Made by a program: the position numbers and the translations under genes. Shown one piece after another: positions 16,298 through 18,957 of a DNA stretch of 64,000 nucleotides (its first letter is position 1; the number at the start of each line of letters is the position of its first letter). The notes under the pieces were generated by a model. The model worked only from the letters and a program-made list of their open reading frames with translations. It was not told where the DNA came from and did not search any database. The stretch is from Azohydromonas caseinilytica (lineage in GTDB: Bacteria > Pseudomonadota > Gammaproteobacteria > Burkholderiales > Burkholderiaceae_C): NCBI RefSeq assembly GCF_012927045.1, contig NZ_JABBFW010000002.1, positions 166,801 through 230,800 of the forward strand, read 5' to 3'.

Positions 16298-16867
16298 TCA
16301 GAACAAGCTGTCCAGCCGGAACAGCACCGCCAGGCCCAGCAGCAGGAAGATCGCCGCGGCGACGCGGTGGATGGCCTCGATGGGCAGCTTGCGCGTGACG
16401 CGCTCGCCCAGCAGCACCGCCGGGACGTTGGCCACCATCATGCCGACGGTGGTGCCGAGCACGACCCAGGCGAAGGCGTCGAACTGCGCGGCCAGCGCCA
16501 CGGTGGCGATCTGCGTCTTGTCGCCCATCTCGGCCAGGAAGAAGGCCACCAGCGTGGTGCCGAAGACGCCGAAGTGGCCGCGCGGGTTCTCGTCCTCGTC
16601 GAGCTTGTCGGGAATGAGCATCCAGCCGGCCATGGCGATGAAGCCCAGGCCCAGGATCCAGCGCATCACGTCCGGACCCAGCCATTCGGTGAGCCAGGTG
16701 CCCAGCGCGCCGGCGCCGGCATGGTTGAAGAGGGTGGCGACCAGGATGCCCAGGATGATGGGCAGCGGGCGCTTGAAGCGCGCGGCCAGCAGCAGCGACA
16801 GCAGCTGCGTCTTGTCGCCCATCTCGGCGAGGGAAACGATGCCGGTGGAAATGAGGAAAGCTTCCAA
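16298..16867 (-). CDS. TMEM165/GDT1 (UPF0016) family cation exporter, probable manganese exporter
   Basis: This 189-residue membrane protein has two copies of the family motif E-x-G-D-K-T (LAEMGDKTQLL near the N-terminus; LAEMGDKTQIA in the middle), each in a hydrophobic helix, and about six membrane segments in two related halves separated by an acidic loop (DKLDEDENPRG). I chose the TTG at 16867 as start because it gives the usual family beginning (M)EAFLISTGIVSLAE and has GGAG 8 bases upstream; a TTG at 16888 is also possible. Family members export Mn(II) or Ca(II). The yybP-ykoY riboswitch directly upstream strongly supports manganese export. Confidence 0.9.
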   Translation of the reverse strand: MEAFLISTGIVSLAEMGDKTQLLSLLLAARFKRPLPIILGILVATLFNHAGAGALGTWLTEWLGPDVMRWILGLGFIAMAGWMLIPDKLDEDENPRGHFGVFGTTLVAFFLAEMGDKTQIATVALAAQFDAFAWVVLGTTVGMMVANVPAVLLGERVTRKLPIEAIHRVAAAIFLLLGLAVLFRLDSLF

Positions 16868-16894
16868 AACAGGTTCTCCGGCCGGCAAGCAGAT

Positions 16895-17050
16895 ACCGTT
16901 GACCGCGCACCTCCCCGGCCATTTCCGGAGGTACAGCGGTCAAAGGTCTCGCCAAGCTGAAACGAACCACCTGCGCCATGCCCGCTCAAGGCAGGCAAGT
17001 CTGTTGACGCAGGTCCCTCTCGCGACTCGGAGGGCGGCTACTCCCCAATG
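16895..17050 (-). promoter_or_regulatory. yybP-ykoY manganese riboswitch
   Basis: The minus-strand leader of the TMEM165-like gene contains the conserved parts of the yybP-ykoY motif in order: GGGGAGTAGCC (from 17047), CGTCAACA, then GGCGAGACCTTTGACC, then GTACCTCCGG...CCGGGGAGGTGC and GCGGTCAACGG closing the long helix. GACC/GGTC pairing and the two conserved loops that bind Mn(II) in known structures are present. Binding of manganese normally switches on exporter genes of this kind. The aptamer ends about 30 bases before the start codon, so the switch probably acts on ribosome access or on a short expression platform. Confidence 0.88.
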
Positions 17051-17087
17051 ACAGCCGCCATTGTAGCCGTGGGCGACAAGGCCCCGT

Positions 17088-17490: not shown

Positions 17491-18957
17491 TCACGGCTGG
17501 GGCGAGGGCGCACGCACCACCGTGACGGTGCATTCGCTCTGCGCCACCACCTGGGAGGAGACGCTGCCCAGGTAGCGGCGCAGCGCCGAATTGGCGCGCG
17601 CGCCCATGACGATGTGGTCCACCTGCGTGCGCTGCGCGAAGTCGATGATCGCCGCTGCCGGGTCCGGCGCCTCCAACACGTGGAAGGTGAGCCGGCCCTG
17701 GCCCAGTTGCAGCGCCTGCGAGATCGGCCGCGCCCAATGCTTGAGGCCCACGAGCTGGCGCACATGGTGGCTGCGGCCCTGCTCGTCCACGAGCTGGTCC
17801 ATGCCGATGCGCGCGGTGCGCATCACGCTCACGCAGGCCAGCCGCGCGCCGGGCTCGGTGGAGAGGATGCGGCGCACCGTCTCGCGCAGCTGCTCCAGCA
17901 GTTCCTCGCCGGCGTTGTCCACGTCCACCGCGGCCATCACGATCGGGTTGCGCGCCACCTGCTCGCCTGCGCTCACCGTGGCGCGCGGCTCGTTGCCCAC
18001 CGAGGCCAGCCAGCGCCGCAGCGTGCGCCAGCGCCCGGCCGTGCCGCGCTTGTGGGCGCGCGCGGTGAGCTCGATCTGCTCGGGCTCCTGCAGCGCCAGG
18101 GCCAGCTGCGCCGCGCTGGGCCAGCGCCGCTCGGGGTCCACCTCCAGGCAGCGCAGGATCACTTCCTGCAGCCACGGCGGCAGCTCCGGGCGCAGCGCGC
18201 TCGGCGGCACCGGCTCGGTGTAGAGCCGCCGGCGCAGCCCGGACACGCTGGTGGGCTGGCCGAAGGGGCGCTCGCCGGTGGCGAGGTGGTAGAGCATCAC
18301 GCCCAGCGCGAACAGGTCGCTGCGCGGGTCGTTGCGCACGAACTGCACCTGCTCGGGCGACATGTACGGCCCGGTGCCGATGGGCAGCGTGAACTCCTCG
18401 TCGAGCAGGTCGGGGAGGTGGTCGTGGCGCGAGAGCCCGTAGTCCACCAGCACGGCGCTGCGGTCGGCGCGGAACAGGATGTTGCTGGGCTTGACGTCCA
18501 GGTGCACCACATGCTGGCGGTGCAGGTCGTGCAGCGCGGTGGCCACGCGGATGCCGATGTCCACCACCTCGGCCAGCGGCAGCGGCGCATCATCCAGTCG
18601 CGGGCGCAACGAGGGGCCCGGGATCAGCTCCATGACGATGTAGGGCTGGCGCGCGAAGTCGCCCTTGGCGATGAAGCGCGGCACGTGCACGCCCGCGAGC
18701 ATGGGCATGATCATCATCTCGACCTCGAAGCCGACGATGGTGGCCGGGTCCTCGCCGCCCTTGATGCGCGGCACCTTCATGATCAGCGGCAGCACATGCT
18801 GCGGGTGCGTGACGCGCCACAAATGCGCCATGCCGCCCTGGTGCAGGTGCTCCTGCAGCGTGAAGCCGTCGATGACGCGGCCCGGGCGCAGCGGGGCATG
18901 CGCCTCGTCGTCCGTGCCGCGGCCGCCCTCAGCGCCCATCGTGCAGGCGTTCTCCAA
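17491..18957 (-). CDS. Ser/Thr protein kinase fused to a universal stress protein (UspA) domain
   Basis: This 488-residue fusion has a Hanks-type kinase at about residues 27-290. The glycine loop is LHQGGMAHLW, the ATP-binding lysine is Lys61 (LIMKVPR), and the catalytic loop is HLDVKPSN (Asp154, Lys156, Asn159), with Leu in place of the usual Arg. The metal motif is DYG (172-174) instead of DFG, and MSPEQ stands at the APE position. Loss of the HRD arginine usually means the kinase does not need activation-loop phosphorylation. Residues about 335-485 are a UspA-like domain (IVMAAVDVDNAGEELL; VMGARANSALRRYLGS). No membrane segment is visible, so it is cytoplasmic. Its start overlaps the end of the upstream phosphoesterase by 29 bases (ATG 18957; ATG 18939 is the alternative), implying coupled translation. 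Function is inferred as stress signalling. Confidence 0.9.
   Translation of the reverse strand: MENACTMGAEGGRGTDDEAHAPLRPGRVIDGFTLQEHLHQGGMAHLWRVTHPQHVLPLIMKVPRIKGGEDPATIVGFEVEMMIMPMLAGVHVPRFIAKGDFARQPYIVMELIPGPSLRPRLDDAPLPLAEVVDIGIRVATALHDLHRQHVVHLDVKPSNILFRADRSAVLVDYGLSRHDHLPDLLDEEFTLPIGTGPYMSPEQVQFVRNDPRSDLFALGVMLYHLATGERPFGQPTSVSGLRRRLYTEPVPPSALRPELPPWLQEVILRCLEVDPERRWPSAAQLALALQEPEQIELTARAHKRGTAGRWRTLRRWLASVGNEPRATVSAGEQVARNPIVMAAVDVDNAGEELLEQLRETVRRILSTEPGARLACVSVMRTARIGMDQLVDEQGRSHHVRQLVGLKHWARPISQALQLGQGRLTFHVLEAPDPAAAIIDFAQRTQVDHIVMGARANSALRRYLGSVSSQVVAQSECTVTVVRAPSPQP

Follow-up and report, generated by a model that had tools for sequence, protein, structure and literature searches.

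A manganese riboswitch ahead of a predicted GDT1-family exporter gene in Azohydromonas caseinilytica, with a candidate covarying helix beside the ribosome-binding site

The stretch of Azohydromonas caseinilytica DNA analysed here (64,000 nucleotides, hereafter the window) carries on its minus strand a gdt1/mneA-like gene (16298..16867) that encodes 189 amino acids from a TTG start codon. The gene product matches the GDT1 profile PF01169 with 147.6 bits (cut-off 27) in two stretches, the pattern of a two-repeat protein. The motif E-x-G-D-(K/R)-(S/T) of the GDT1/UPF0016/TMEM165 family occurs twice, each time as EMGDKT, which bears out the two ExGDKT motifs and the TMEM165/GDT1-like assignment of a first-pass annotation of this DNA, and the E, G, D, K and T of both motifs are invariant in 28/28 aligned proteins. 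Evidence from the family supports manganese efflux, the function suggested at that stage, and the product is likely a GDT1-family manganese exporter. The start codon at 16867, already proposed together with the GGAG 8 bases upstream of it, occupies the position homologous to that of the ATG in most of its relatives: among 76 unique leaders the codon at this position is ATG in 60, TTG in 11 (the window included), GTG in 1 and another codon in 4. Read from the sequence, GGAG (16876..16879, minus strand) is the Shine-Dalgarno element, 8 nt before the start codon. The list of open reading frames holds a second in-frame TTG upstream, at 16888, just ahead of the 3' strand of helix H-B described below. 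The host genome has one GDT1 gene, one Nramp match above cut-off and a second match to the riboswitch model RF00080 (contig 6, 55.7 bits), which directly precedes an mntP gene (PF02659, 169.2 bits).

Two genes upstream of gdt1 lies a 488-aa protein (17491-18957, minus strand) with a protein kinase domain (PF00069) and, after it, a universal stress protein domain (PF00582). The order of this kinase-Usp gene, a CxxCxxCC protein gene, gdt1 and an aminopeptidase gene is kept in a genome of the same genus (L146). For a wider comparison, named GDT1 loci were collected by a profile search with the protein, and the best 80 of 589 were used. The aminopeptidase, CxxCxxCC and kinase proteins of the window were found by tblastn at 0/80 of these loci (2.5-kb flanks, some shorter). 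A link with the downstream aminopeptidase, described earlier as a metal enzyme that is possibly Mn-dependent, therefore has the one same-genus genome behind it, and a functional link between gdt1 and the aminopeptidase was rejected because synteny outside the genus was absent from the 80 named loci (best 80 of 589). About 2 kb downstream of gdt1, a chrB-b RNA is present at three loci from two Ramlibacter and one Polaromonas (L072:4992-5048, L085:4909-4965 and L137:4993-5049).

Upstream of the gene, the covariance model RF00080 (yybP-ykoY) matches positions 17058-16871 of the minus strand over the full model (positions 1-177) with 75.1 bits (gathering 45, E 8.8e-18), and this is the sole Rfam match at gathering across the 64 kb. 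The first-pass annotation had recognized a Mn(II) riboswitch of this class in the leader and had proposed running the model, and the score upholds its reading. The conserved cores GGGGAGTAG and GCRAGACC, joined by P1, are present both in the sequence and in the model alignment. Boundaries read off the sequence place the aptamer at 16938..17052 (minus strand), with the P1 5' strand GTCATTGG at 17052-17045, the core GAGACC at 16950-16945 and the P1 3' strand TTTGACC ending at 16938. Among the three consensus motifs that had been listed, GGGGAGTAGCC and GGCGAGACCTTTGACC are indeed present and correspond to the aptamer core plus the P1 3' strand; the third, CGGTCAACGG, is found in the window but outside the aptamer core, as part of the expression platform. 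The end of the Rfam model (16871) directly precedes the TTG and the aptamer proper ends near 16938, so that about 70 bases, instead of the roughly 30 given before, separate the aptamer from the start codon. Closeness of the aptamer to the start codon is, by itself, no evidence for translational control. A probable -10 element, TACAAT, is read at 17060..17065 (minus strand), and TACAAT, TAAAAT or TAGAAT stands at the equivalent place in some relatives (e.g. L006, L018 and L025); a sigma-70 scan called no promoter at this element of the window. A search for solved structures by sequence profile retrieved none at E 0.01.

The pairing of a Mn riboswitch with a GDT1 gene is already well known in bacteria, and the observation, while confirmed, is mostly ordinary. 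According to the cited part of a review, this riboswitch controls the gene in 328/333 of the UPF0016-bearing strains screened (PMC7380456). We examined 60 genomes of the family, using strict filters for RF00080: the model was matched at E 0.001 or better in 35/60 genomes, and above cut-off in 29. GDT1 is present in 50/60, and a riboswitch lies within 400 nt upstream of 32/52 GDT1 genes (31/50 GDT1-bearing genomes), the remaining 20/52 giving no match under these filters; the 52 genes exclude a divergent second gene (G027, contig 254) and a fragment (G002, contig 13). Seen from the riboswitch, 32/38 matches in the family sample precede GDT1 and the other 6 precede MntP. Among the named loci (best 80 of 589), RF00080 was found at gathering in 50/80 (13, 15, 8 and 14 of 20). 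Since the pairing is widespread both in relatives and in the review, the window adds a member to a known pairing. The same counts, for the named loci and for the family genes, argue against the idea that the cation exported or handled by the gene product is a different one, Ca(II) or H+, with the riboswitch as a passenger; Ca(II) is also transported by GDT1 proteins of eukaryotes, and for two bacterial members the cited part of the review gives an indication of Mn transport only (PMC7380456). We consider this explanation highly improbable. In eight genomes of the class sample (L168-L170, L172-L174, L178 and L180) the open frame that holds the single GDT1 match is just 91-108 aa long, and these short frames are, on sequence grounds, consistent with half-size (one-repeat) GDT1 proteins.

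The expression platform was compared across leaders extracted by a motif search separate from the Rfam detection of RF00080. The 110 loci examined (the window, L005-L033 and L066-L145) gave 79 leaders, of which 76 were kept after removal of 3 duplicates: the window, 28 from the family sample and 47 from the named loci (best 80 of 589). Permutation tests used 72 of them, the other four having a homologous codon that is no start (CTC, GAT, TTC, GAA); alignment A2 holds the 57/72 leaders with a platform of 70-84 nt. The permutations ignore relatedness, and kinship was addressed with sets thinned by platform identity.

About 30 nt past the P1 3' strand TTTGACC, the sequence GCGGTCAACGG resembles the P1 5' strand GTCATTGGGG. 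The motif CGGTCAACGG mimics that strand; its partner is the P1 3' strand, and the two form a competing switch hairpin, H-A (16899..16943, minus strand), defined by folding and covariation. Its outer arm joins TTGACCGC (16943-16936) with GCGGTCAA (16906-16899), and its inner arm joins ACCTCC (16932-16927) with GGAGGT (16914-16909). The MFE fold of the window with the ORF gives GCGGTCAACGGTATC (16892..16906, minus strand) as the anti-P1 strand that mimics the P1 5' strand; with the ORF, H-A extends into the GAGACC core, and without it the hairpin ends at TTGACC. H-A and the folded P1 are mutually exclusive. When the window folds freely, H-A reaches a probability of 0.98; its stability in the window is -28.2 kcal/mol, and across leaders the median in the free nested fold is 0.99; values below 0.5 in 5/76 free folds (L018, L081, L116, L124 and L138) count against it. 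Complementarity of own versus swapped strands gave z 16.1, reached in 0/10000 permutations (72 leaders), and 8/14 H-A pairs display double changes in A2. Reading of the sequences of L031 and L131 shows the mimic strand tracking altered P1 strands. The two P1 strands showed no covariation with each other in the permutation test (z 0.1, 72 leaders).

The less expected part of the platform is H-B, which sequence comparison suggests is a conserved extra helix linking the apical loop of H-A to the ribosome-binding site. Its 5' strand GGCCGG lies in the H-A apical loop (16915..16920) and its 3' strand CCGGCC abuts the Shine-Dalgarno element (16880..16885), both on the minus strand and both assigned from covariation and geometry. 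Own versus swapped strands gave z 9.1 and 0/10000 permutations over 72 leaders; an earlier test of 27/29 leaders, omitting the same-genus L016 and the mis-phased L019, gave 0/20000. The signal persisted in the thinned sets (n=27, z 6.0, 0/10000; n=17, z 4.1, 2/10000; n=8, z 4.0, 0/10000). Control pairings of the ribosome-binding site and of the loop with the ORF displayed no covariation, with z -1.1 and -1.7 for 72 leaders and -0.8, -0.8 and -1.6 for ORF controls on the thinned sets. In A2, 6/7 H-B pairs have double changes and 86.0% of cells are paired, even though MAFFT shifts some GGGCCGG rows by one column, which works against H-B. Over the whole structure 81.5% of cells are paired, and 26.4-44.9% once the partners are slid by 1-3 columns; column shuffling gives 76.1%, with 0/500 shuffles reaching the observed value (A2). 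Two results count against H-B: the own partner outscores every swapped one in only 6/72 and 4/29 leaders, and the own helix scores above the 95th percentile of shuffled ribosome-binding sites in only 12/29. The own partner is seldom best because the core GGCCGG is conserved, and the H-B signal sits in the mean.

Two other partners for this region were tried and rejected. Pairing of the Shine-Dalgarno element or the H-B 3' strand with the ORF start showed no covariation (z -1.1). Pairing of the ribosome-binding region with the aptamer interior, which takes up the H-B 3' strand at 0.42 on average and 0.81 in the window in free full-length folds, showed none either, 2130/10000 permutations reaching the observed value.

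The core of H-B varies among leaders as GGACC/GGTCC, GGCTGG/CCAGCC, GGCTGCG/CGCAGCC and CGGCCGA/TCGGCCG. In the class sample the motif occurs at 4/29 loci, one of the same family (L155) and three from other families, and L176 has GCCGAGCTT/AAGCTCGGC, another sequence, at the H-B position. The mntP leader of the same genome (L002:1501-1672, contig 6) by eye shares this loop-to-RBS layout, its core sequence being a different one. By the same kind of inspection, GGTCGGGC/GCCCGACC stand in an H-B-like layout in the mntP leaders L002 and L147; L148, L150 and L151 have related pairs, and that of L149 is weaker.

The position of H-B within H-A was assessed by holding its 5' strand unpaired, and the remainder of H-A still closes around the strand (72 leaders). 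The distance between the H-B strand and the 3' arm (L2) is 0-1 nt in 93% of the 72 leaders, compared with 42% of other windows, and the strand falls within the hairpin loop in 94% compared with 37%. The full H-type pattern (L2 at most 1, hairpin loop, L1 of 3-8) is found in 76% of the 72 leaders and in 2% of 1506 windows. Freeing the strand costs a median of 4.2 kcal/mol, whereas the figure for other windows is 8.8, and in 36/72 leaders this cost ranks within the lowest tenth; in the window the cost is 0.7 kcal/mol, with L1, L2 and L3 of 6, 0 and 12 nt. In these models H-B thus appears mostly placed where an H-type pseudoknot requires. The median H-A of 15 bp and median L3 of 10.5 nt (72 leaders) count against a pseudoknot, a hairpin of that length spanned by such a loop being near the steric limit of the H-type fold.

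Taken together, the sequence evidence makes it probable that expression of this GDT1/MneA-type exporter is switched on by a riboswitch responding to Mn(II), through a platform of P1, H-A and H-B. The P1 3' strand would have two alternative partners, the P1 5' strand in the folded aptamer and the downstream mimic in H-A; binding of Mn(II) would lock P1 and thereby dismantle H-A, and in Mn-free RNA H-A would form and expression would be low. Mn is taken to switch expression ON, because relatives are Mn-induced according to the cited passages (PMC8546581, PMC7380456, PMC13274385). Our best guess is that without Mn the RNA adopts an H-type pseudoknot of H-A and H-B, whose end would sit on the ribosome-binding site and hinder the 30S subunit, and Rho may act on the untranslated RNA. 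This blocking pseudoknot, possibly with Rho, is the least certain step, and our confidence in it stays somewhat under an even chance.

Nested folds, which contain no pseudoknots, reveal no consistent shift in the openness of the Shine-Dalgarno element. Between the free and the P1-locked state its openness is lower in 17 and higher in 20 of 76 leaders, or lower in 16 and higher in 19 of 72 with the full leader, where the mean unpaired fraction is 0.41 free versus 0.43 P1-locked; in the window it goes from 0.04 to 0.17 and from 0.26 to 0.33. The same model applied to E. coli mntP lowers the openness of the start codon when P1 is locked, contrary to the published ON switch, and since it misses that switch it has little power for or against translational control. 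In nested folds H-B itself has a median of 0 in the free state and of 0.70 in the P1-locked one, contrary to what a pseudoknot blocking solely in Mn-free RNA would show, and in one mntP leader (G052) it forms in both states. These values suit a different role, in which H-B would belong to the Mn-bound state, forming once P1 is locked, barring H-A from invading P1 and leaving the Shine-Dalgarno element just free, with the Mn-free block coming from something else, such as pausing or Rho at H-A. In line with this, most leaders have part of the H-B 5' strand paired when H-A folds without constraint, RNA polymerase stops within the Bordetella pertussis riboswitch without Mn, by its authors' own inference in the cited passages (PMC8546581), and Rho termination is described for the leader of E. 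coli mntP (PMC11647493). The P1-locked H-B reaches only 0.02 in the window, however, and such a role leaves unexplained both why the H-B strand sits in the apical loop directly next to the 3' arm and why its partner touches the Shine-Dalgarno element. We regard it as possible but doubtful.

A transcriptional switch, with H-A acting like the intrinsic terminator of Lactococcus lactis, would account for the great stability of H-A and for its use of the P1 3' strand, which the L. lactis terminator shares in the cited description (PMC11087558). T is also enriched after the unextended H-A base (3.14 of 8 versus 1.80 expected, 72 leaders), and a run of at least 5 T follows H-A in 8/76 leaders. Such a run is absent from the other 68, the window (GGTATCTG) among them, and a terminator scan of the window, covering loops of 3-8 only, called none at H-A. 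In the 8-nt tail after the folded, often extended base, U amounts to 1.58 versus 1.80 expected (71 leaders, some tails short or wrongly based), and in V. parahaemolyticus the read coverage reported in the cited passages has no drop at the riboswitch (PMC13274385). We find this explanation unlikely, and intrinsic termination at H-A was not accepted as a general mechanism, given the 68/76 leaders that have no T run.

Returning to the pseudoknot, the H-B-like layouts ahead of both gene families raise a broader conjecture: proteobacterial Mn riboswitches before GDT1 and MntP, which are unrelated families, may share an undescribed platform in which the loop of the anti-aptamer hairpin docks beside the Shine-Dalgarno element as a state-specific pseudoknot. 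We hold this as speculative, more probably wrong than right. If true, Mn sensing would reach the ribosome via such a pseudoknot and not by pairing of the Shine-Dalgarno element itself. A covarying platform matters here, as the authors of the V. parahaemolyticus mneA work leave the level of control open in the passages cited (PMC13274385). H-A and H-B supply specific pairs that can be mutated (for H-B, 16920-16915 with 16885-16880).

Bordetella pertussis belongs to the order Burkholderiales. Its gene BP3410, annotated as a calcium:cation antiporter, likewise has a yybP-ykoY leader, with a plausible TACAAT -10 just upstream of the riboswitch and a mapped start, and its mRNA is Mn-induced (PMC8546581); the likeness, as far as the cited passages go, covers the aptamer, the -10 element and the induction. 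MneA of V. cholerae (PMC7380456) and V. parahaemolyticus (PMC13274385) is, in the parts cited, likewise a UPF0016/GDT1 exporter, Mn-induced and with yybP-ykoY upstream; its hosts are Gammaproteobacteria, whereas the gene described here is betaproteobacterial. The E. coli mntP riboswitch has the same aptamer class and is described in the cited text as a translational ON switch with Rho control shown (PMC11647493), the latter a difference from the present case. MntP also belongs to an unrelated exporter family, and the E. coli platform sequence is other than that of the window. By eye, GCTGGGG adjoins the 3' arm of the switch hairpin in the E. coli leader (L064) and could pair with CCCCGGT before the Shine-Dalgarno element. 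As far as searched, no description of an H-B-like helix was found in print, and an equivalent helix may have been drawn in the E. coli platform. The Lactococcus lactis yybP riboswitch, as given in the cited passages, differs in having a true intrinsic terminator and no described H-B, and resembles the present leader in that the 3' segment of P1.1 is common to the aptamer helix and the competing hairpin (PMC11087558).
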